Source: Gammaproteobacteria bacterium (lineage in GTDB: Bacteria > Pseudomonadota > Gammaproteobacteria > DSM-16500). From it: a stretch of 64,000 bases of DNA. Location of the stretch: assembly GCA_013287025.1 (NCBI GenBank), contig JABDEN010000003.1, forward strand, positions 4,355 to 68,354, read 5' to 3'. Shown piece after piece: positions 15,760 through 39,932 of this stretch. Every line of letters starts with the position of its first letter. Position 1 is the first letter of the stretch. The translations under genes were made by a program, and so were the position numbers. A model generated the notes under the pieces. It saw only the letters and a program-made list of their open reading frames with translations. It had not been told where the DNA came from and searched no databases.

Positions 15760-17001
15760 TCAATCTGCGGCTTCTGAAAGAGGATTTTTAAGTTTTTTAT
15801 TTTTCGCAGATTTATATCGTGCTTTTAACTCAATATTATTATATCGATCAGTGATTGCACTGGAACTATGTCCCGCATCATCTCGCACATGCGCAATAGG
15901 ACGACCACGTTTATTAATATCATCTGAAATACCGGTATGTCGCAACCAATGTACCGTTGCAACAGAAAGCGCATCAGCATCCGAATGATTTTGTTTTTCT
16001 CTCAATTTTTCGATCGTTTTATCAAAACATACTTGCATCATTCGTCTAATATGCCTTACATCCGTCATCGCACCTTTACCTTTTTCTTTTGGAATTAAAG
16101 GTGTTTTATCTTGGGAGGAGGGCAGGGAAGTTAAATCCATGCTCAATCGAAAACGTGTTAACGCCGCCAACATATCATCGCTGACAGCAATATTTCGCAT
16201 TTTATTCCCTTTCCCTACGGTTTTAAACCACCAAGAATTATTAGCATCCTTAAAAAAATGTTTCATCATTGGTACCCAATGAACATTTGCGACTAATTCA
16301 GAAATTCGTAAATACAAAAGATAAAGTGTTGAAATAATAAATAACGTGCGCTCGTGTTTTGCTGGATTTTCCATTGCCATTTCTTTCACAGTCTCTAAAC
16401 AACTTTGCCATTGCGTTTCTGATAAACGCATGACAGGCACTTCATGCTGGCTTTTTTGCAAATATTTGCTTTTTTGACGTATTAAAGCGATTGGGTTATG
16501 CTGCGCTTTTTCTTCCAACACTAAATAATTATAAAAACTGCTTAATATAGTAAATATTTCGCGAAGTGATTTTTGGGAAAGTTGATAGGCATTGATATTG
16601 GGCTTTTCACCTTTTTTGAAAGCATGTTTGCTAACAGTTGCAACATACGGTCGCCATTTAGGATTGGGAACACGAACCCCACCTTTGTTGATAAAACGCA
16701 GCACGCGCTCCGTACCAATCCAATGCTGTGGCGGATTGATACAAAAATCAATATAGTTTTCCATGTCTTGTCGACGAAGCTCTAAAATAGATTTTTCTTT
16801 CACATACCACGCCCATTGAAAAAGCCTTTCAATTTCACGACGATAAGATTCAAAAGTCGCTTTGTTTGCACGGTATTGTAGTAAAAAATCGGTGGCAGCA
16901 GAGAGATCATAAAGACCGAAAGCGGGGGATTGAATGGTTTTGATCGTATTTTCCCATTCTTCTAAACTATCGAACAAAGGCTTCGGAAGATTTGATGCCA
17001 T
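15760..17001 (-). CDS. Tyrosine recombinase / phage-type integrase
   Basis: 413 residues. The N-terminal SAM-like core-binding domain (about 20-180) is followed by the catalytic domain with the full set of residues: Arg in YLRISEL, Lys in VGKGNKMRN, HxxR in VHWLRHT, a GHSS motif and the nucleophilic Tyr in DRYNN. Such enzymes integrate or excise mobile DNA or resolve replicons. It is longer than XerC/XerD. No attachment site, tRNA or phage genes are visible nearby, so it may be a leftover of an older element. Confidence 0.9.
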   Translation of the reverse strand: MASNLPKPLFDSLEEWENTIKTIQSPAFGLYDLSAATDFLLQYRANKATFESYRREIERLFQWAWYVKEKSILELRRQDMENYIDFCINPPQHWIGTERVLRFINKGGVRVPNPKWRPYVATVSKHAFKKGEKPNINAYQLSQKSLREIFTILSSFYNYLVLEEKAQHNPIALIRQKSKYLQKSQHEVPVMRLSETQWQSCLETVKEMAMENPAKHERTLFIISTLYLLYLRISELVANVHWVPMMKHFFKDANNSWWFKTVGKGNKMRNIAVSDDMLAALTRFRLSMDLTSLPSSQDKTPLIPKEKGKGAMTDVRHIRRMMQVCFDKTIEKLREKQNHSDADALSVATVHWLRHTGISDDINKRGRPIAHVRDDAGHSSSAITDRYNNIELKARYKSAKNKKLKNPLSEAAD

Positions 17002-20661: not shown

Positions 20662-20740
20662 TGTCATGCCAGCATGCTTTTAGCTGGCATCTACCAGAGA
20701 GGCCCCGCTGGATGCCAGCTAAAAGCATGCTGGCATGACA
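20662..20740. repeat. Palindromic repeat, family A, near-perfect copy
   Basis: Arms of about 32 bases, TGTCATGCCAGCATGCTTTT and AAAAGCATGCTGGCATGACA outermost and AGCTGGCATC/GATGCCAGCT inside, with a short GC-rich centre. It is the most symmetrical copy in the window and may be the most recent. It reads as an in-frame extension of the following gene, which is why that gene's start must be chosen downstream. Confidence 0.92.
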
Positions 20741-20828
20741 AGCAGGGTCGAACTTCTTCAAAAAAAAGGTCTAGATTTACCAAATATAGAACAAAAAAAA
20801 CACTTTCTGTTTATATTTCTCTCTTTTA

Positions 20829-20837
20829 TGATATAAT
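20829..20837 (+). promoter_or_regulatory. Extended -10 promoter for the 2046-residue protein gene
   Basis: TGATATAAT (TG at 20829-20830, TATAAT at 20832-20837) lies 31 bases before the ATG at 20869. No good -35 box is seen, which is tolerated with a TGn extension. It supports the downstream start. Confidence 0.55.
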
Positions 20838-20868
20838 CTGCAGCATTTTTAAGAATGTTGAGCAAATT

Positions 20869-23800
20869 ATGTCGAATCCTCGCCATACATTATCAGATAG
20901 CAAAGATTCATCCCCACCAGGGATTGTATCAAATTTCTTTCGTTTTGAAGGCGAAACTGAAATCCTTTCTGATGATGCAGTTGCGAACGCAGCCTACTTA
21001 GAAGGTAAGGAACTTTTTAAAAAAGAAGAGTACCTAAAAGCATTTAATCAATTCAGTGAAGCAAGAAAGAAAATAGCGACGAATTTAGAAAATGTAAAAT
21101 CTCAACAATTGTATTTAAAAATAGCTTTTTATATCGGACAATGTTACATAAGGAAAAAACAGCCTGATAAAGCAGTAATTTTTTTAGATAATATTTTAAA
21201 AAAGTTTTCAGAAGAAAAAGAATTATGGTCATACGTAGAAAAGTTAGAGCTATTGTCCTTTGTTGGAAAACAATCAAAACTCGTCACAGAAATACCGGAA
21301 ATTAAAAAATCCCCGCATGGAATATTAGCCACACTTAAACGCGCCCTGGAATTATTGGTGGAAAACAAGATCACTGAAGCTTGTGAACTCCTTATCCCTC
21401 TCATGCCTTTGTCGCAGTCAACCATTAATGAATATATCGAAATCGGACCTATTGATACTGCAGAAGACTATTTATTCGTTGTTAATCTTTATCAATGGAT
21501 TGATGATAAAATTAAGAACTACGAAAAATCTGAAAAAAACGATGCAATGCTTGATAACTATTGCAAAATTCTAATCAACATTAGCCCATTTTCATTATCG
21601 TTTCGAGAAGGCGCTTACTATCTGCAAGGTACATTTTTTGCAAAGCAAGATCAGTATGAAAAAGCTGTCCAATCCTTTAGCAAAGCAATTAAAATCAATC
21701 CAGAGGAAACAAATTTTTATCTTTGCAGAGCGAAGACATATAAATATATAAAAAAATATGCGGAGGCAAAGGCTGATCTCCAATATGTATTAAAAAAAAT
21801 TTCTAATGACCCTGATCACCCTCATAACGAAGTAGCTCTAAAAGAACTTTCAACCGTTGAAGGTCTAATAAAATTGCAAAGCAATTCCAGAAGTATGTCA
21901 GATATAAAAATGGATAAAACACTAAAGGAAAAATTAATTCAACGTAATAAAGATTTTTTTAAGTTAAATGAATCTAAATTTAATGAAATGGTTTACTATA
22001 CTCAGGGCATTTTATTGTTACGCGATTCTAAATTTAAAGAAGCATTAACCTATTTTTCTCCAATACTTCCTTTATCCAAAGAAGTAGAAAAAAAATATCA
22101 AGAAACTGTTTTAGTTCATGATAATTCAACGCATTTGACAGCTTGCGAAAATTTATGTAGCCATATTAAAAAACAAGCCGATCAATTCGAGAATCAGAAT
22201 CCCCTAGCCCCTAGCGTTGTGCGATTGACAGACGAATTTCTTTTGCAAGCTAAAATTTTATTTCAGATAGCTTGGACAGATACAGACAAAGCATTCGCTT
22301 TATATTTTCAAGCAATGTTTTATCATAGTCACCAAAATCACGCTGAGGCTATTAATTTCTTTGATCAAAGTAGTGCTTTAATACCTAACCGACCTAGATT
22401 ATATTATCTTAAAGCATTATCATATTTGGCACTTAACAACCACCAACTCGTTAAAGAAAATTTAGAAAAAGTCCTACAACTAAATCCAAAATATAGTTTA
22501 GCGCGAGAAATGCTTGTTAACATCAATAAAGTATTAAAAAAAGAAAAATCAAACCCACCTGTTGTTAAAAAAGAAGTTCCAGAAATAAAAAAACCTTCAA
22601 AAAATCCTAAAAATAAAAAAGCGGTGAAAGCCGAATTGCCGAAACCCCAAGTTGTTGCCAAAAAAGATGATGAAATGAAACTCTCAAAGGAAAAAATTCA
22701 TGAACTCAGCCTTATGGATAGCAAACATTTACCCTCATCAACGGCTACATTCAATTACTTTGCTTTTGAAGGCGCAACCGAACTTCTCTCTGATGATGAC
22801 GAAGCGAATAAAGCCTACTTAGAAGGTAAGGAATTTTTTAAAAAAGAAGAATACCTAAATGCATTTAATAAATTCAATAAAGCAAGAAAGAAAATAGCGA
22901 CGAATTTAGAAGATGTAAAATCTCAACAATTGTATTTAAAAATAAATTTTTATCTCGCACAATGTTACATAAAAAAAAACCAGGCTAATCAAGCGCTACT
23001 TCTTTTAGATAATATTTTAAAAAAGTTTTCACAATGTAAAAAAGAATTATTTCCATATTTAGAGGTGTTAGAATTTTTATCCTTTATTGGAGGACAATCA
23101 AAAACCGACGCAAAAACGCCAGAAATTAAATCCTCCCCGCAAGATATATTATTACTCACCATTAAACGCGCCCTGGACTTATTGGGGGAAAACAAGATCA
23201 CTAAAGCTTGCGAACTCCTTACTCCTCTCATGCCTCTGTCGCAGTGGACTGTTAATGAATATATCGAAATCGGACCTATCGATACCACAGAAGAATATAC
23301 ATTCATTGTTAATCTTTATAATTGGATTGATGATAAAATTAAGCACTACGAAAAATCTGAAAAAAACGATAAAATGCTTGCTAACTATTGTGAAATTATG
23401 ACAAACATAAGTCAATTTTCATTGCCATATCACCCAGACTCTTACTTTCTGCAAGGTAAATTTTTTTCGAAACAAGATCAGTTTGAAAAAGCTATTCAAT
23501 CTTTTAACAAAGCAATTGAAATCAACGAAAATGGAATGGATTTTTATCTTTGGAGATCTAGGGCATATAAAGATATAAAAAAATATGAGGCTGCAAGGGC
23601 TGATCTCCAACATATATTAAAAAAATTTCCTAATAACAAAATAGTCAAAAATGAACTTTCAACCATAGAATGTCTAATAAAATTTAAAAACCTCACACCT
23701 AGCACACCAGATAAAAAAATGGATAAAGTACTTCCATATAATCAAGATTTTTATAAGACTCAATATACTCAAGGTATTTTATTGCTAAAAGACTCTAAAT

Positions 23801-26800
23801 TTGAAGAAGCATTAACCGTATTCTCTCCAATACTTCCTTTATCTAAAGAGGTAGAGAAAAAATATCAAGAAACTGAATTAACTAATGACAATTCAACACA
23901 TTTGACAGCTTGTAAAAATTTATGTAGCTATATTAAAGAACAAACCCATCAATGGGAGGCTAGACAAAAAATTAAAAGCAGAAACTCGACGCAATTAACG
24001 AACGACTATCTTTTGCTAGCTAAAATTTTATTTCAGATAGCTTTGAGTGACGAGGTCAAATCAATCGCCTCAACTTCTCAAGCACTGTTTTATTATAGCA
24101 GGCTAAATTATACCGAGGCTATTAATTTCTTAAATCAAAGTATTGCTTTAGCACCTAATCTACCCAATTTATATTATTATAGAGGATTGTCGTATTTAAC
24201 ACTTGAAAACCTCCAGCCCGCTAAAGAAAATTTTGAAAAAGCCATACAAATAGATCAAAAAAATAATTATGCGCGACAAATGCTTGATATCACCAATAAA
24301 AAATTAAAAAAATCAAAATCAAATCCGCCAGTTGTTAAAAATGAAAAAAAAGAAGTTCCAGAAATAAAAAAACCTCAAAAAAAATCTAAAAAGAAAAAAA
24401 ATAAAATGATGGCGAAAGAAGAATTACCGAAATCGCAAGTTGTTGCAAAAGTTGATGATGAAATTGAAAAAAATAAAATAGAGGAGGAAAAGCAAAAAAT
24501 TACTGAACAAACATTAATGGTAAAAAAAATTCAAGAATCAGTGGATGTCATTGCATCAAACATCCGATCACAAACAACTGAAATTGAAAAAATCACAAAA
24601 AATGCTGAAAGAAAAGTTGCAAAGATTTCTGAAGCTGGCAAGATCGAAGAGATAAAAAAGTATATTACCACGTTAATCCAATCGAAAATCGAGAAAATTT
24701 TAGCGTTTATTGAGGATTTAAATAAGATTATATTACTAGACAGCTTTGTCACACCTTCATTAAAAGAAACACATGATGAAATTGTTAAAGCAATAAATAC
24801 ATTAAAAGAAAAAAACACCTCGACACAATTAGAAATGATGCAAAATGCTTGTATAGATAAAATTGATAAACGTGTTATAAAAAAAGAACAGAATAAAGAA
24901 GAGCAGGCTAGATTAGCAGAAGAAGCAAAAATTGAAAAAGAAAATATTTTAAAAAAAGAATTAGAAGAAAAAGCAAAGTGGGAAATTGATAAAAAATTAG
25001 AAGATGAAAGCAATAAGTATATCGATAGCATCACAGAAGAGCATCAAAAAATCAAAAAAATTGAAGAAGATATCAAACAAGCTTTTGAAACATTTAAAAA
25101 ATTAACGAATGACGTTTCATTAGTTAACATTCATACTCCTGATAACATACAACATTTAGATAATATTAAAAATGATTTTGAAAAGCATACAAACACTTTA
25201 CCAAAATTATTAGACAAACTTTCAGAGAGTATAACCCAATCTTCGACACTCCTTTCTTCTCCTGTTGTTTCTAAAAAAACAATAAATACCATTAAAACCT
25301 TAACCGCTGATCAAGAAGTAATGGCGAGCTGGTGCAAAAACCTTAGTGATGAAGCAAACAAACATAACGAAAACTTTACACAGAACTATCAAAATAAATT
25401 GTCGGAAATTCAAAAAAATAATAACAAAATAAAAATCCTGCAAGAAAAATTTAATAAAATAAGCCTTAACCTTCAACAAATTAATCCCGAAGAAAATAAA
25501 ACGCTTGCTGAGTTAAATGACGACACCAAAAAAATATCAGATATCCATGCCGAATTAATACAGGTTCAAGAAGAATCAAAAAATTATCCTATCGATGATA
25601 ATTTCAAAGAAGATATTAAAACACAAATAAATATAGCCGCAGATAAACTTACACTTTCACAAAATATTGTTCCTAACATATACGAAGCTGCTCATTCCCA
25701 AGGAAAAATGGAATATTTATTTGATTTTTGTGATAAATATAATACAGGTTGGAAAGGAGGGGATTCACAACTCGCCGGCGCATTGTTGTATTCAGATATT
25801 CACACCGCATCAAAAGTTAAAATTAAAGATTCAGATGGATTCATTGAAAGCGAAACATTAATTCCATTCGCGAATCGACTTGCTATGACCGATTGCTTAT
25901 CATCCGAACCTTGTTTATACCCATCAGATGAAAAGCTTGATAAAACACCTGGTAAAATCTATATCACTAAAAATTCTCGTTTTGAACCACTTCAATATTT
26001 GGTTTACAATAAAAATACCGAATTTCCTATCACTGGCGATATCAAATACCTTGATATTAAGGGTGATTTAGAGCAAATTGAGTCTTATCAACCACATTTC
26101 AATAAAATTTTGCAAGAAATTCAATTAGAAGCTTCCAAAAATTCACAGGTTCTTTATCCTGCTGAACCATTCTACGATTTCAAAAATCAATTACAATTTA
26201 TAAAATTGAGTCATTTTGTTAATGGAAAGGAATTCGACCTTACCATTCATGATAAAAATTATAAGGGTAATCAATTCATTACAGGGTTTGCGAGCGGAAG
26301 GGTAGTTTACAGCAAAACACCGCTTGATGAAAAATTATTTGATGTACTTAAAATTAGTGATAATCGATATGTAGGTATAGATAAAAAAGATCAGTATTAT
26401 GAGGATTTTAAATATGCTTTTACACATCGATCTTATTTAGTCGCACCTTACCAATTTGGTGTGCACAGTAAACATTCTGTGGTTGTTGTGAAAAATTTCA
26501 AAAAAATGAACCAATTATTCTCTGATCTCAAAATCGATGATAAACCCAGAGTAGCGGGCGATGGAGTCACAAAACTAGTGGGATATAAAGACTTTTTAGA
26601 AAACCTACCCACACAATTCAAAACTGAAATGAAAAATCAGTTAAATGAAAATGCTTGTTATCAAGAAATTAATGCTTTAATCAAAGCATTTGATGGCAAA
26701 TTTAATGATTTAGATATTCAACCTTTTTTAACTGCATTTTTTGATGCTGTTATTTTCAAACAATCCGGCATTAAAAATGCGGATTTGACAAAAAAAATCA

Positions 26801-27009
26801 TTGCATCATTGAGTAACTCTTATCAAAAAGATCCTACTAAATATGATTTAAAATCCAAGGAAATGCGATTCTTTTTTGAGAAAGAGATTAGACGACTGAC
26901 TGCTCTTCACTTAAAAGATGCTCCGCAATTTTTTGTGAATAACGAATCGTCATCAGCGACCATGTCTGTATCAACGACGGCGTCAATATCAAGTACAAAT
27001 CAACCTTAG
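20869..27009 (+). CDS. Giant TPR and coiled-coil protein with internal tandem duplication, effector-like
   Basis: 2046 residues from the ATG at 20869, just after a good extended -10 box; a longer frame reaching into the repeat upstream is rejected. Residues about 20-600 and 625-1200 are two copies of one module. Both open with FEG.TE.LSDD, share LEGKE.FKKEEYL.AFN.F, contain TPR units (YY.QG.FF.KQDQ.EKA.QSF.KAI) and a PLMPLSQ element, and end in a Lys/Pro-rich linker. A long Lys/Glu coiled coil follows (about 1200-1600), then a globular C-terminal region (about 1610-2020) that I cannot assign. The tail is Ser/Thr-rich. No signal peptide. Size, TPRs and coiled coil fit a secreted host-acting protein, but that is inference. 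Confidence 0.8.
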   Translation: MSNPRHTLSDSKDSSPPGIVSNFFRFEGETEILSDDAVANAAYLEGKELFKKEEYLKAFNQFSEARKKIATNLENVKSQQLYLKIAFYIGQCYIRKKQPDKAVIFLDNILKKFSEEKELWSYVEKLELLSFVGKQSKLVTEIPEIKKSPHGILATLKRALELLVENKITEACELLIPLMPLSQSTINEYIEIGPIDTAEDYLFVVNLYQWIDDKIKNYEKSEKNDAMLDNYCKILINISPFSLSFREGAYYLQGTFFAKQDQYEKAVQSFSKAIKINPEETNFYLCRAKTYKYIKKYAEAKADLQYVLKKISNDPDHPHNEVALKELSTVEGLIKLQSNSRSMSDIKMDKTLKEKLIQRNKDFFKLNESKFNEMVYYTQGILLLRDSKFKEALTYFSPILPLSKEVEKKYQETVLVHDNSTHLTACENLCSHIKKQADQFENQNPLAPSVVRLTDEFLLQAKILFQIAWTDTDKAFALYFQAMFYHSHQNHAEAINFFDQSSALIPNRPRLYYLKALSYLALNNHQLVKENLEKVLQLNPKYSLAREMLVNINKVLKKEKSNPPVVKKEVPEIKKPSKNPKNKKAVKAELPKPQVVAKKDDEMKLSKEKIHELSLMDSKHLPSSTATFNYFAFEGATELLSDDDEANKAYLEGKEFFKKEEYLNAFNKFNKARKKIATNLEDVKSQQLYLKINFYLAQCYIKKNQANQALLLLDNILKKFSQCKKELFPYLEVLEFLSFIGGQSKTDAKTPEIKSSPQDILLLTIKRALDLLGENKITKACELLTPLMPLSQWTVNEYIEIGPIDTTEEYTFIVNLYNWIDDKIKHYEKSEKNDKMLANYCEIMTNISQFSLPYHPDSYFLQGKFFSKQDQFEKAIQSFNKAIEINENGMDFYLWRSRAYKDIKKYEAARADLQHILKKFPNNKIVKNELSTIECLIKFKNLTPSTPDKKMDKVLPYNQDFYKTQYTQGILLLKDSKFEEALTVFSPILPLSKEVEKKYQETELTNDNSTHLTACKNLCSYIKEQTHQWEARQKIKSRNSTQLTNDYLLLAKILFQIALSDEVKSIASTSQALFYYSRLNYTEAINFLNQSIALAPNLPNLYYYRGLSYLTLENLQPAKENFEKAIQIDQKNNYARQMLDITNKKLKKSKSNPPVVKNEKKEVPEIKKPQKKSKKKKNKMMAKEELPKSQVVAKVDDEIEKNKIEEEKQKITEQTLMVKKIQESVDVIASNIRSQTTEIEKITKNAERKVAKISEAGKIEEIKKYITTLIQSKIEKILAFIEDLNKIILLDSFVTPSLKETHDEIVKAINTLKEKNTSTQLEMMQNACIDKIDKRVIKKEQNKEEQARLAEEAKIEKENILKKELEEKAKWEIDKKLEDESNKYIDSITEEHQKIKKIEEDIKQAFETFKKLTNDVSLVNIHTPDNIQHLDNIKNDFEKHTNTLPKLLDKLSESITQSSTLLSSPVVSKKTINTIKTLTADQEVMASWCKNLSDEANKHNENFTQNYQNKLSEIQKNNNKIKILQEKFNKISLNLQQINPEENKTLAELNDDTKKISDIHAELIQVQEESKNYPIDDNFKEDIKTQINIAADKLTLSQNIVPNIYEAAHSQGKMEYLFDFCDKYNTGWKGGDSQLAGALLYSDIHTASKVKIKDSDGFIESETLIPFANRLAMTDCLSSEPCLYPSDEKLDKTPGKIYITKNSRFEPLQYLVYNKNTEFPITGDIKYLDIKGDLEQIESYQPHFNKILQEIQLEASKNSQVLYPAEPFYDFKNQLQFIKLSHFVNGKEFDLTIHDKNYKGNQFITGFASGRVVYSKTPLDEKLFDVLKISDNRYVGIDKKDQYYEDFKYAFTHRSYLVAPYQFGVHSKHSVVVVKNFKKMNQLFSDLKIDDKPRVAGDGVTKLVGYKDFLENLPTQFKTEMKNQLNENACYQEINALIKAFDGKFNDLDIQPFLTAFFDAVIFKQSGIKNADLTKKIIASLSNSYQKDPTKYDLKSKEMRFFFEKEIRRLTALHLKDAPQFFVNNESSSATMSVSTTASISSTNQP

Positions 27010-28404: not shown

Positions 28405-28674
28405 TTATTTAAACAAATCGGAATGTGTTCCTGTTCGGATAAATGTAATGCTATTGCCTTTTATGAGATATATAAGGAGCCAATCGGGTTCGATATGACA
28501 CTCTCTGCAGTCACTATATTCACTCTTTAACGGATGATCTACATGTTTTTTTGCTAATGGTTTTTGGTCAATTAAATCAGAGATAATATTATATAATTTT
28601 TTAATATCTTTTCCTCTTTTCTTTATAAGTTTTAAATCCTTTTTAAAACTAGTTTTATATCCAGGAGTTAACAT
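28405..28674 (-). CDS. yafQ: YafQ-family type II toxin (mRNA interferase)
   Basis: 89 residues of the RelE/ParE superfamily, YafQ branch: FKKDLKLIKKRGKDIKKL, ECHIEPDWLLIY and RTGTHSDLF, including the C-terminal His of the family. YafQ cleaves ribosome-bound mRNA; the antitoxin neutralises it. Its start overlaps the antitoxin stop by one base, the usual antitoxin-first order. Confidence 0.92.
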   Translation of the reverse strand: MLTPGYKTSFKKDLKLIKKRGKDIKKLYNIISDLIDQKPLAKKHVDHPLKSEYSDCRECHIEPDWLLIYLIKGNSITFIRTGTHSDLFK

Positions 28675-28934
28675 TACTTTTCCAATTCTTTAAATAAATC
28701 GTCCACATCTTTACAAACGTTTATACCCTTTCCTTTCCTTGCCTCTCTAATTGCACGAGCAGTTTTTGCGTTTGGAATTTTTAACTCTAATGGCCATTCA
28801 TGCTCACGCGCAATGCGGGTGTATAACATTGTTATAGCCTGCGTTGGTGTAATGCCAAGTTCACTCAAAACATGCTCTGCGATTAGTTTTAATTTAGGCT
28901 CCACACGTGCCCTGATAAATGCTGCTTTGCTCAT
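28674..28934 (-). CDS. dinJ: DinJ/RelB-family antitoxin
   Basis: 86 residues from the ATG at 28934, eight bases after AAGAGG; a GTG three codons upstream is possible. It has the RelB/DinJ ribbon-helix-helix start (FIRARVEPKLKLIAEHVLSE) and the GITPTQAITMLYTRIA helix. The C-terminal tail (ARKGKGINVCKDVDDLFKEL) should wrap the toxin. It should also repress its own operon by binding the promoter. Confidence 0.92.
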   Translation of the reverse strand: MSKAAFIRARVEPKLKLIAEHVLSELGITPTQAITMLYTRIAREHEWPLELKIPNAKTARAIREARKGKGINVCKDVDDLFKELEK

Positions 28935-28997
28935 AATTATCACCTCTTAAATAATTGTATCCCAAATGAGATACAACTACAAGTTCAATAGGAAATG

Positions 28998-29285
28998 TTA
29001 TTTAAACAAATCGGAATCGGAATGTGTTCCTGTCCTTTCAAAAATAATCTCTTTTGATTCAGGTTTGTAAATTAGCAACCAATCTGGTCCAATATGGCAT
29101 TCGCGGCGATCGTTATAATTACCTGTTAGCCAATGGTCAAAATACTTATGAGGAAGTTTTTGTCCTTCCAATAAAAGAGTCATGACAGTACGCAATTTGG
29201 AAAGGTCTTTTCCTCGTTTACGGGCTAATTTTACATCTTTTTCAAATCGGTTGGTGGTTACAATTGCTAGGATCTTTACTTTCAT
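28998..29285 (-). CDS. Second YafQ-like toxin without antitoxin
   Basis: 95 residues, another YafQ-type protein (TTNRFEKDVKLARKRGKDL, ECHIGPDWLLIY, RTGTHSDSDLFK). No antitoxin gene precedes it; the upstream sequence instead encodes a signal-peptide-like start in another frame (29242-29361). The ATG at 29285 has no Shine-Dalgarno, and family members begin nearer to ..IVTTNRF. It may be translated only by coupling, or be silent. The DinJ downstream could cross-neutralise it. Confidence 0.75.
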   Translation of the reverse strand: MKVKILAIVTTNRFEKDVKLARKRGKDLSKLRTVMTLLLEGQKLPHKYFDHWLTGNYNDRRECHIGPDWLLIYKPESKEIIFERTGTHSDSDLFK

Positions 29286-29499: not shown

Positions 29500-30249
29500 T
29501 CACATCACTAAACACTTACCGCTTACACCTTTTTCATTATTATCTTCACTCTTTTGCTCATTTGTAAAAAGTCTCAGCGAGACATATTGAATTTCAGGGG
29601 ATTGTTTTCCTAAGATTTTATTTATGATTTCTATTTCATCATTTCGTAGTGCTTTACTCATAAACATCATTGAATTTGTATTTCTATTCATTTCTTTAAT
29701 CTTTACTTTTTCATTAATGCGTAGCAATGCCTCAAAAGCGGGTTTTTTTCCCAAATTATTATTATCTTCTATAAGGATCTTATACAAAGTTCGCACATCA
29801 GAATCACTATAAGATTCTAAATTAAGTTCAGCGCCGGCAATTAACAGCAAACGCACGCATTCACTTTGTTGATTGCTGGATTTTGCAATTAAACCTGCGG
29901 CAAAACCAAGTGCTGTGTTTCCATGCATATTTAGTGTATTCACATTTGCTTTTGCTTCGATTAATAATTTTAAACAATCTGAATAACCTTCATACGCAGC
30001 CCAATGCAATGGGGATAACATGCATTCCTTTGGTTTAGCATCGACATCTGCTTTTGCATCAATCAGTATTTGAACGCATTCTGGATAATTTCCATGTACA
30101 GCCGCAGTAAGCGCGGTATCTTTGTCATAAACAACGTCAAGGATTTTTGGATCAGAAAGATTTTTAACATATTCCTTCACAAGTTCTGCTTTTTCACTGG
30201 ATTCCAACTTTTTGTCTGTAATAATTTCTACAATATATCTTGCTTCCAT
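29500..30249 (-). CDS. Ankyrin-repeat protein with C-terminal CaaX box
   Basis: 249 residues from the ATG at 30249, preceded by AAGAAG; a longer form from 30279 overlaps the previous gene and lacks a ribosome site. Three ankyrin repeats cover about residues 44-142 (TALTAAVHGNYPECVQILID, SPLHWAAYEGYSDCLKLLIE, NTALGFAAG...CVRLLLIAGA). The protein ends ...GKCLVM. Cys-Leu-Val-Met is a textbook CaaX sequence for farnesylation, checked codon by codon at 29503-29514. Bacteria lack the prenylating enzymes, so this points to a protein delivered into a eukaryotic host and lipid-anchored there, as Legionella AnkB is. It lies at the end of the transcript starting with the 31270 oxidoreductase. Confidence 0.85.
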   Translation of the reverse strand: MEARYIVEIITDKKLESSEKAELVKEYVKNLSDPKILDVVYDKDTALTAAVHGNYPECVQILIDAKADVDAKPKECMLSPLHWAAYEGYSDCLKLLIEAKANVNTLNMHGNTALGFAAGLIAKSSNQQSECVRLLLIAGAELNLESYSDSDVRTLYKILIEDNNNLGKKPAFEALLRINEKVKIKEMNRNTNSMMFMSKALRNDEIEIINKILGKQSPEIQYVSLRLFTNEQKSEDNNEKGVSGKCLVM

Positions 30250-30268
30250 TAAGAATCTTCTTTCCTGT

Positions 30269-31270
30269 TTAGACAGCATATTCGGGTTGTTTAGTTTTAC
30301 TTTTTACTTGCTGCAGCCATGTCTCTAAAACAACGGTATTACCGAGGCTATGCATTAATGATTTTTCACTAAAGCTTTCTACATCTTTATTTATTATTCT
30401 CGAATTAACGAAATCAATTTGATAAGTGTAAAGCGATTTCTCTGACTTTACATTAATTTCTATTGGAGAAGTTTCATTATTTAAATAAATATGAAACGTA
30501 TTATCTTCATCACTGGGAAACCAAGGGTTAGAAACCACTTTGAGAACCCCTTTTGTCCCGTACACATCAAATTGCCAAGCCATTTTGATATCATCTGCAG
30601 TTGAAACGACGCCAACGCTATCATCAGCAAACTTCAATATCACACTCGCCTGATTATCAGTATTATTACCATGATTGAATCGTCCTGTGCCTTGTATTTC
30701 AATAGGTTCTTTATCTGCAAGTAATCGGACGAGAGAGATGGGATAACAGCCTAAATTGCGAATACTTCCACCCGCGACAGGATTTGCAATATCAGCGATG
30801 TGCGCAGTATAAGTCGCATTATATAATTTCACTTCTCCTATTATTTTATTTTGAATGATTTCTTTTATTTTTTCGGCATAGGGATGGAATTGATACATCA
30901 AAGCTTCTACGCAAAATAGATTTGATTTTCGGACGTGAGAGATGACTTCACGCGCGTCGGAAATGCTAATTACGAAGGGTTTTTCGCATAAAATATGTTT
31001 GCCTGCCTCTAAACCACGAAGTATCCATTCTTTATGTAAATGATTGGGTAAACCGATATAAACAGCATCAATACCATCGTCATTTAATAAATCTTGGTAA
31101 TTTTCGTAAATTTTTGGGATTGAAAATTGTTGAGAAAAATTTTTGGCGGTTGCAATAGATCTACTTCCAATTCCTAACAATTGGCTCGTTGCAGATTTAT
31201 GAATAGCATTCGCCATCACTTCAGAAATATAACTCGTACCTAAAATTCCCCAATTAATATTTTTATTCAT
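30269..31270 (-). CDS. Gfo/Idh/MocA-family NAD(P)-dependent oxidoreductase
   Basis: 333 residues. The N-terminal Rossmann domain has WGILGTSYISEVM as nucleotide loop, GIGSRS and IGLPNHLHKEW. The family lysine sits in HILCEKPFV. The C-terminal domain has GGSIRNLGCYPISLVR, containing the family's catalytic-region Gly-Cys-Tyr and similar to dihydrodiol/xylose dehydrogenases. The substrate, probably a sugar or cyclic polyol, cannot be told. It overlaps the alternative start of the ankyrin gene. Confidence 0.88.
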   Translation of the reverse strand: MNKNINWGILGTSYISEVMANAIHKSATSQLLGIGSRSIATAKNFSQQFSIPKIYENYQDLLNDDGIDAVYIGLPNHLHKEWILRGLEAGKHILCEKPFVISISDAREVISHVRKSNLFCVEALMYQFHPYAEKIKEIIQNKIIGEVKLYNATYTAHIADIANPVAGGSIRNLGCYPISLVRLLADKEPIEIQGTGRFNHGNNTDNQASVILKFADDSVGVVSTADDIKMAWQFDVYGTKGVLKVVSNPWFPSDEDNTFHIYLNNETSPIEINVKSEKSLYTYQIDFVNSRIINKDVESFSEKSLMHSLGNTVVLETWLQQVKSKTKQPEYAV

Positions 31271-38373: not shown

Positions 38374-38614
38374 AACATTACCCTTAAAGGAAATTGATAA
38401 AATAATCAGGTGTTTAGGAATATAACAAGAAAGTTGGCTACTGCCAACAACAATGACATAATAATGTTAGGAAAATTTGTTTAAAAATCAACATAGTTAA
38501 CCACTAATTCTCATGTGTTACAAAAAGATGAAAAACAACATGATTAATTTTCGTAATCTTCGTATTATTATGAAAGTATTTAAATAAAGCAACCGTTTAA
38601 AAAAGGATTTTATT

Positions 38615-39190
38615 ATGTATTTATACGCATTAGGTATTTATCCCTACGATTCTTTTACCGGCCAAATTAAAGAAAAAATATTTGTTCAGAGAGAAACCTT
38701 AAATCCCGAAACTCCCACCCAACTCTCTGATCTTGAAAGTAAATTATTGCCAAAGAAGTCTGCGCTTTCATTAGTAGCCAATCGCCTTTATTACAACGAT
38801 GATGTCATTGAATGCCAGTTCTTACAGAGACTAGAGCATACTAATATTATTTTAGCAGTCGTCAGTCGAAATAAAATTAAAGATAAAGAAGATCTTAAGC
38901 TAATTATTATGATATTAAATAACATAACAAATATCTATCTTAAACAGTCTAAATATGGATTTACACTGAAAGATTTACTGTATAACCCCTTGTTAAAAGA
39001 AGATCTTATCGTTGATAAAATAAATAGAACCAATGAAGAAGTAAAAGATGTCATGATAGAAAATCTGAAAATTTTGATTGAACGCGGTGAGAATTTAGAT
39101 GATTTATTAGAAAAAACACATCATTTAAAAGAAGATACCATTAAATTAGAAGATGGTGCTAAAAAGCTTAATACTTGCTGTCGATGGTGA
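38615..39190 (+). CDS. Eukaryote-like R-SNARE with longin-type N-terminus (YKT6/VAMP-like)
   Basis: 191 residues; AAAAGGA lies seven bases before the ATG. Residues 1-115 resemble a longin domain (MYLYALGIYPYDSF start, FLQRLEHTNIILAVVSRN strand region, a following helix). Residues 133-187 form a SNARE heptad helix: EVKDVMIENLKILIER aligns without gaps to VAMP EVVDIMRVNVDKVLER. R157 is at the ionic zero layer, and LIERGENLDDL matches YKT6 LLERGEKLDDL. The tail KLNTCCRW recalls YKT6 KQNSCC followed by its prenylation signal. No signal peptide or membrane helix. The alignments are from memory of the eukaryotic proteins. A protein like this would be expected to join or block host SNARE bundles after secretion. 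The DOT1-like gene follows 13 bases later. Confidence 0.85.
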   Translation: MYLYALGIYPYDSFTGQIKEKIFVQRETLNPETPTQLSDLESKLLPKKSALSLVANRLYYNDDVIECQFLQRLEHTNIILAVVSRNKIKDKEDLKLIIMILNNITNIYLKQSKYGFTLKDLLYNPLLKEDLIVDKINRTNEEVKDVMIENLKILIERGENLDDLLEKTHHLKEDTIKLEDGAKKLNTCCRW

Positions 39191-39203
39191 TATTATTATC
39201 CCC

Positions 39204-39932
39204 ATGATATATAGCTACGGATTAATAAGTTTAAGCGCAATAATACTTATCGCTTGGTGTTGGCGCTATTGTATCAAGCCATATTTTGCTAAAAATGACT
39301 TACACAACTACTTCAATAATCATGCCCGTGGTGACCAATTAAAAAAAACCGAGAAATTACTAAAATTATTATATAAAAATACCCCCTCTGGTTTTATTTC
39401 ATATCGAGAAAGAAAAAGATTAAAAATGGAAGAAGATGCTTTTACCTATGGTGAAATACAATTTTTATCGTTTTTTTCTATTCTTGATATGGTAAAACCA
39501 CAAGCTCATGAAATTTTTTATGATTTAGGATCAGGTGCTGGCAAAGCAGTTTTCGCTACCGCATTTTATGGAGACATTGCAAAATGCTATGGTGTTGAGT
39601 TACTTCCTAAATTATATGAACTATCGAATAATAAAATTTTAAAAGCGAAAGCAAATGCTTTTTCTTTAGAAAAAATTTCTCGCATACAATTCATTAATAA
39701 AAATTTTTTTGATATTGATTTCACGGATGGTGATATTATTTTTATTAATGCAACCTGCTTAAGTTTTACTGCTTGGGAAAAAATCCAACAAGAACTATTA
39801 AAGCTTAAATCGGGAAGTCGAATCATTGTCACTACAAAAAAAATAGTAAGCGATCATTTTTCAATAATATATCAAGGAATGACGCTGATGAGCTGGGGTA
39901 TCAATTCTATTCACATTTATCAAAAAATTTAA
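39204..39932 (+). CDS. DOT1-like class I SAM methyltransferase with N-terminal membrane segment
   Basis: 242 residues from the ATG at 39204; an in-frame ATG at 39153 would overlap the SNARE gene. Neither has a strong ribosome site, so coupling to the SNARE gene is likely. Residues 5-24 are a membrane anchor (YGLISLSAIILIAWCW). The catalytic domain follows the DOT1 pattern: FTYGEIQFL, LDMVKPQ, motif I FYDLGSGAGKAVFATAF, YGVELLPKLYELS, FINATCLSF and SGSRIIVTTKK. DOT1 methylates histone H3 Lys79 in eukaryotes; many bacteria have DOT1-fold enzymes of unknown substrate. Lysine methyltransferase activity on a host or bacterial protein is plausible but unproven. Confidence 0.8.
   Translation: MIYSYGLISLSAIILIAWCWRYCIKPYFAKNDLHNYFNNHARGDQLKKTEKLLKLLYKNTPSGFISYRERKRLKMEEDAFTYGEIQFLSFFSILDMVKPQAHEIFYDLGSGAGKAVFATAFYGDIAKCYGVELLPKLYELSNNKILKAKANAFSLEKISRIQFINKNFFDIDFTDGDIIFINATCLSFTAWEKIQQELLKLKSGSRIIVTTKKIVSDHFSIIYQGMTLMSWGINSIHIYQKI

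Follow-up and report, generated by a model that had tools for sequence, protein, structure and literature searches.

The window analyzed here, a 64,000-nucleotide stretch of a gammaproteobacterial assembly (GCA_013287025.1, contig JABDEN010000003.1, positions 4,355 to 68,354 of the forward strand), contains a longin R-SNARE gene at 38615-39190 (+), an uninterrupted reading frame of 191 residues that runs from an ATG start to a TGA end, the stop being included in the coordinates. A Shine-Dalgarno-like AAGGA was read off the sequence at 38603-38607 (+), 7 nt 5′ of the ATG. The product divides into a predicted longin domain (residues 1-127; 38615-38995, +), an R-SNARE motif spanning layers -7 to +8 (residues 133-185; 39011-39169, +) with the codon of its zero-layer arginine, R157, at 39083-39085 (+), and a C-terminal tail, C188-C189-R190-W191 (39176-39187, +), that is a predicted paired-cysteine anchor signal.

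Pfam Synaptobrevin was the only profile to exceed its cut-off in this reading frame (residues 133-190, E 1.3e-11, 44.6 bits against a cut-off of 26.4), and no family for the gene was found in PHROGs or NCBIfam. When the sequence was searched against solved structures, R-SNAREs ranked on top (VAMP4, 5.2e-5; YKT6, 4.1e-4; VAMP7, 2.7e-3); in the same search the Q-SNARE SNAP-25 came seventh (4.2e-3) and SEC22b was weakest (0.5), and the nearest R-SNARE subfamily is not settled by these scores. The protein aligns with YKT6 without gaps up to the Cys-Cys pair. Anchoring the register on R157 gives V I N V M N L R L L T L T L A L for layers -7 to +8; in these layers (VINVMNLRLLTLTLAL) the hydrophobic positions have 3-4 spacing, and the register peaks at this setting. 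Across 33 aligned sequences (that of the window, 10 relatives found either in its clade or in the order of its closest kin, 20 Legionellales members, and 2 treated as eukaryotic, P0013 by assumption), arginine occupies the zero layer in 33/33, and the layer positions have a mean hydrophobicity of 2.08 in the R157 register versus 0.71 at the next best shift. Kept outside these counts were the proteins with tandem motifs (G143 and G145), those with Q at the zero layer (G096, G123, and G102), a protein of 839 residues (G046), a 279-residue protein of G028 with a partial profile match, an R-SNARE of G496 with a hydrophobic segment but without a longin domain, a weak match in G283, extra coiled-coil proteins below the cut-off in G009 and G020, a stop-shortened copy in G012 (L151), and a match in G076. 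A Q-SNARE mimic like LseA or the LegC proteins would be expected to carry glutamine at the zero layer, where the window protein has R157 instead. Judged from its sequence, the motif is a complete R-SNARE. The original prediction had claimed such a motif with R157 at its zero layer, and it is upheld both by the R-SNARE profile search that it had called for and by the layer residues of the homologs, which keep the arginine and share the register.

The N-terminal part had also been described as longin-like, in agreement with the AlphaFold2 model of residues 1-127, in which a longin fold is predicted and which structurally resembles the longins of Ykt6, Sec22b, and VAMP7. By VIA-align, TRAPP subunits scored within one Z unit of the SNARE longins, with adaptor-complex subunits not far behind.

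Protein searches, made in a space of 5.8 billion with a word filter that limits their reach to proteins sharing short words, returned three close relatives (P0002-P0004) that are 79, 59, and 56% identical to the window protein. A pattern scan of the genome collection, built from a 3-sequence alignment, yielded no relative, and neither did a scan of viral contigs and plasmids. The nearest matches of a 4-hydroxyphenylpyruvate dioxygenase-like gene of the window (named by eye) lie in three gammaproteobacterial metagenome-assembled genomes (71, 69, and 68%), all falling in one order, of which 36 genomes were surveyed. The Synaptobrevin profile exceeded its cut-off in 6/36 of these genomes (7 at E ≤ 0.001), and the family alignment finds 7; longin R-SNAREs occur at seven loci in 6/36 genomes, one of them (G020) below the Pfam cut-off, and all seven loci have bacterial genes on their flanks (by eye). 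Among Legionellales, the profile exceeded its cut-off in 24/143 genomes (27 at E ≤ 0.001); matches from 26 of these 27 were inspected and comprise 20 longin R-SNAREs of 175-217 residues and 6 variants. Purifying selection acts on the Legionellales group (ratio of nonsynonymous to synonymous substitution rates, dN/dS, 0.06 to 0.30 in 8 pairs). The notion that the protein stands alone is not supported: relatives occur in two bacterial orders (6/36 genomes, and 20/143 in Legionellales), and synaptobrevin-domain proteins of Legionella have been in print since 2014 (PMC4256840).

Several arrangements were noted among these relatives. Two longin-type Legionellales proteins (L145:525-1259 and L146:463-1248) have two tandem SNARE-like motifs, the first with a lysine in its zero layer (by eye), and keep the CaaX box CNLI. 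In L148:483-998, L149:544-1059, and L150:206-727, also from Legionellales, glutamine stands for the zero-layer arginine (by eye) above the CaaX boxes CILI, CILM, and CILI, respectively, an R-to-Q change inside one family. The 839-residue protein (L147:1241-3760, -) has its R-SNARE motif near the C-terminus. A gene order of tgt, longin SNARE, and MgtC-like membrane protein (names by eye) is common to L144, L089, and L151 (G009, G020, and G012, respectively); in G009 and G020, this run continues with a further coiled-coil protein that bears a cysteine cluster, and in G012 the SNARE copy is ended early by a stop. In another gammaproteobacterial genome (L115:1393-2061, 68.5 bits), an R-SNARE motif stands before hydrophobic segments, and no longin domain is present.

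In the tree, the window protein lies within a clade of seven with support of 99/97, or 99/95 with the tail cut off. The 31 bacterial rows stand apart from the 5 eukaryotic rows (97/94), the latter being few, with three not taken from a database record and P0013 assumed to be eukaryotic. Capture from a eukaryote would be the natural reading; since the bacterial rows stand apart and the eukaryotes are few, the tree settles neither the donor nor the number of captures.

The tail sets this clade off from its relatives. Its members end in CCRW (three times), CCHW, CCKAW, CCRYW, and CRC, and an aliphatic CaaX box is found in 0/7 of them versus 20/20 Legionellales relatives (e.g., CVLI, CTLI, and CTIL). 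The original prediction had allowed for CCRW being a drifted CaaX signal; with paired-cysteine tails in 7/7 members, it looks instead like a different anchor signal conserved in the clade. Nor does CCRW agree with the Cys-CaaX end expected of a YKT6 ortholog. The predicted cysteine spacing, in turn, does hold: the window's pair is at R+31 and R+32, as in YKT6, and the first cysteine is at R+31 in 7/7 clade members and 17/20 Legionellales relatives, the place of YKT6 Cys194, which is geranylgeranylated by GGTase-III while the next cysteine is farnesylated (PMC12001115). The tails recognized by Rab geranylgeranyltransferase are listed as CC, CXC, CCX, CCXX, and CCXXX (PMC9141697), a list that fits 7/7 clade tails, and the Rab enzyme and GGTase-III have their beta subunit, RabGGTB, in common (PMC12001115). 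Because the R+31 cysteine occupies the Cys194 place and the tails fit the Rab-type list, the anchor of the window's clade, read from its sequence, is YKT6-like at its start and Rab-like at its end. Longer tails, in which cysteines are single or clustered, occur in four other relatives in the order. Since CaaX, paired-cysteine, and single or clustered cysteine tails differ between groups, more than one exchange of anchor seems to have taken place in the family.

An R-SNARE role would be unchanged if host acyltransferases S-palmitoylated the cysteine pair in place of prenylation, a possibility that we take seriously while thinking it not the probable one. Paired cysteines are commonly palmitoylated, and the cysteine clusters of L084 and L089 in the order match no prenylation signal. 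The pair of the clade, however, lies 0 to 3 residues from the C-terminus in 7/7 members, a constraint of prenylation and not of palmitoylation.

Several known systems share parts of this design. YKT6 combines, in about 190-200 residues, a longin fold (predicted in the window protein) with an R-SNARE motif and a Cys pair at R+31/R+32 and no transmembrane segment; in contrast to CCRW, its tail is C-C-a-a-X, its sequence likeness to the window protein is confined to the motif, and the two are not joined in the tree, with its few eukaryotes. In 2014, Gomez-Valero et al. reported that Legionella hackeliae and L. fallonii have synaptobrevin-domain proteins, lha0498 and lfa3165, respectively, and placed lha0498 in a table of genes gained from eukaryotes (PMC4256840); proteins of L. 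israelensis and L. erythra carry the NCBI label 'R-SNARE family protein'. These proteins, of which lha0498 and lfa3165 are assumed to belong to the same group as the Legionellales longin R-SNAREs, have the architecture, the Pfam family, and, in the proportion of relatives given above, the R+31 cysteine in common with the window protein, but they differ in their universal aliphatic CaaX box and in an rdgB-like gene adjoining in 13/20 (by eye), and the window's clade remains apart from them when the tail is removed. LseA of Legionella pneumophila is likewise a SNARE mimic anchored via a host prenylation motif (PMC7542358), but it is a Qc-SNARE with a CAAX motif. LegC2/YlfB, LegC3, and LegC7/YlfA are injected and enter host SNARE complexes, but these VAMP4 binders have Q-SNARE-like coiled coils and are listed as transmembrane effectors (PMC7542358, PMC12981334). 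Rab GTPases share with the window protein a tail pattern of the CC, CXC, CCXX, or CCXXX type; the likeness is in the tail only, as the window protein is without a GTPase domain.

A review (PMC7542358) names LseA, a Qc-SNARE, and the Q-type LegC proteins as Legionella SNARE mimics whose function has been tested. Our literature search, out of whose reach most subscription journals lie, turned up no publication describing a bacterial longin R-SNARE. A 2020 study by Neveu et al. (Current Biology) on the SNAREs of Heimdallarchaeota may mention bacterial SNAREs too. Bacterial synaptobrevin-domain proteins are thus already known, and what is new is the longin architecture, how widely it occurs, and the change of anchor.

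Taken together, it appears slightly more probable than otherwise that the window protein is injected into the host, is lipid-anchored there through its Cys-Cys tail, and fills the R position of host SNARE complexes. Delivery would be through the Dot/Icm type IVB secretion system, of which a core part, DotH/IcmK, is present in 31/36 genomes of the order, including the three with a paired-cysteine relative. The cysteine pair would then be lipidated by a host prenyltransferase with the RabGGTB subunit, either Rab geranylgeranyltransferase or GGTase-III, proposed because all seven clade tails fit the Rab-type list and none ends in an aliphatic CaaX box. Pairing would be with host Qa, Qb, and Qc SNAREs, proposed because no t-SNARE-type partner exceeds the cut-off in the genomes of the order: PF05739 does so in 0/36 of them and in 1/143 Legionellales (a short fragment), compared with 6 and 24 for the R-SNARE family. 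As an outcome, vesicles normally handled by a host YKT6/VAMP-type R-SNARE might fuse with, or be held at, the bacterium's compartment.

The same complexes could be entered with the opposite result if the protein were a blocking decoy that takes the R position and stalls them, for example keeping lysosome-bound vesicles from the bacterial compartment. This is the main rival, if a rather unlikely one. The likely lipid anchor without a transmembrane segment would suit it, the relatives with K or Q at the zero layer suggest that productive fusion is not always selected, and LegC3 of Legionella inhibits yeast vacuole fusion (PMC3577674); on the other hand, the arginine and nearly all layers are intact in the window's clade, which a pure blocker would not need. 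Because the layers are intact and a double lipid anchor is likely, a working R-SNARE steering fusion at the bacterial compartment is favored on the sequence evidence.

A number of points weigh against this working R-SNARE and its proposed anchoring. The tryptophan in the tail is atypical of prenylated tails. The longin domain is predicted from a model, and the Pfam Longin profile has no match at E ≤ 1 in the window protein, although such a match is usual for longin SNAREs and not required. The zero-layer arginine is replaced in some Legionellales relatives, by K in 2 and by Q in 3 of the 26 genomes (by eye). A Dot/Icm system in the window's own genome would follow from the order of its relatives only, and kinship to that order is drawn from the sequence of a single gene. 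Host partners are proposed from a profile, PF05739, by which Q-SNARE mimics like LseA or the LegC proteins may go unnoticed. The list of Rab-type tails is permissive and does not by itself name the enzyme, since by letters it also fits 2/20 of the Legionellales CaaX tails and the C-C-A-I-M end of YKT6. Finally, each candidate enzyme brings a step that is not evident here: Rab geranylgeranyltransferase requires a substrate-recognizing escort protein (PMC9141697), and the substrate of GGTase-III is YKT6 already farnesylated at its CaaX cysteine (PMC12001115).

It is very improbable that the protein is a coiled coil by chance, or that it is purely bacterial and became SNARE-like by convergence. 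The Synaptobrevin profile does give false positives: in a class sample of 369 genomes, 6 exceeded the cut-off, three of them from the two orders, and in one of the 6 (L117) the match spans stop codons in a frame that resembles a chemotaxis receptor (by eye), so the profile alone is no proof. What argues against chance is the joint conservation of register-specific layers, zero-layer arginine, longin topology before the motif, and YKT6 spacing after it. Eukaryotic contamination of the assembly, suggested by the eukaryote-like protein, is ruled out for practical purposes by bacterial flanks, as homogentisate dioxygenase, fumarylacetoacetase, and further bacterial genes lie in the window along with suc and sdh genes (named by eye), the frame is uninterrupted, and relatives lie among bacterial genes (by eye) both in six genomes of the order and in Legionellales.

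More broadly, and only tentatively, intracellular gammaproteobacteria may hold a widespread family of YKT6-type longin R-SNAREs whose anchor was swapped at least twice, between CaaX boxes (Legionellales), Rab-style pairs (the window's clade), and cysteine clusters (others); the window protein would then be a chimera of two host signals, in which the body resembles YKT6 and the tail, resembling that of Rabs, is prenylated by RabGGTB-bearing host enzymes, and it would act as R-subunit when vesicles fuse at the bacterium's own compartment. With a full longin R-SNARE whose layers are intact, the bacterium itself could supply the R-subunit. With CaaX, paired-cysteine, and cysteine-cluster tails on one body, the family is a natural test of the anchor that a SNARE needs, and the R+31 cysteine in common with YKT6 makes the lipid at that position, and its enzyme, directly testable.

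Downstream of the SNARE gene by 16 nt lies a gene for a DOT1-like methyltransferase with an N-terminal hydrophobic stretch (39207-39932, +; Pfam DOT1, 2.8e-18); no terminator-like site was found between the two, and they are possibly co-transcribed. Relatives of the methyltransferase occur in 10/36 genomes of the order, in other neighborhoods. A functional link between the two genes is not supported, as a methyltransferase relative occurs in 0/6 of the order's longin R-SNARE genomes. With the methyltransferase as a syntenic anchor, no SNARE adjoined it in the ten loci inspected (of 11 returned); since its 10 genomes are also without a longin R-SNARE, there is no empty site to compare.

Within the window, a PmrA-like promoter pattern has 1 match, 13 kb from the SNARE gene, where 0.5 would be expected by chance, and promoter-like sites number 15 against 10.9 expected. 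An integrase-family gene is located at 15760-17001 (-), and about 4 kb on, a 2111-residue protein rich in tetratricopeptide repeats is encoded at 20674-27009 (+). The pair at 28405-28943 (-) consists of a RelE-like toxin frame (28405-28674) and a partner frame (28674-28943), and the frame at 28998-29285 is similar by eye. At 29500-30279 (-), a 259-residue ankyrin-repeat protein, whose matches to the Dot/Icm effector AnkY and others are far below the cut-offs, ends in the CaaX box CLVM and is a second candidate for host prenylation in the window.
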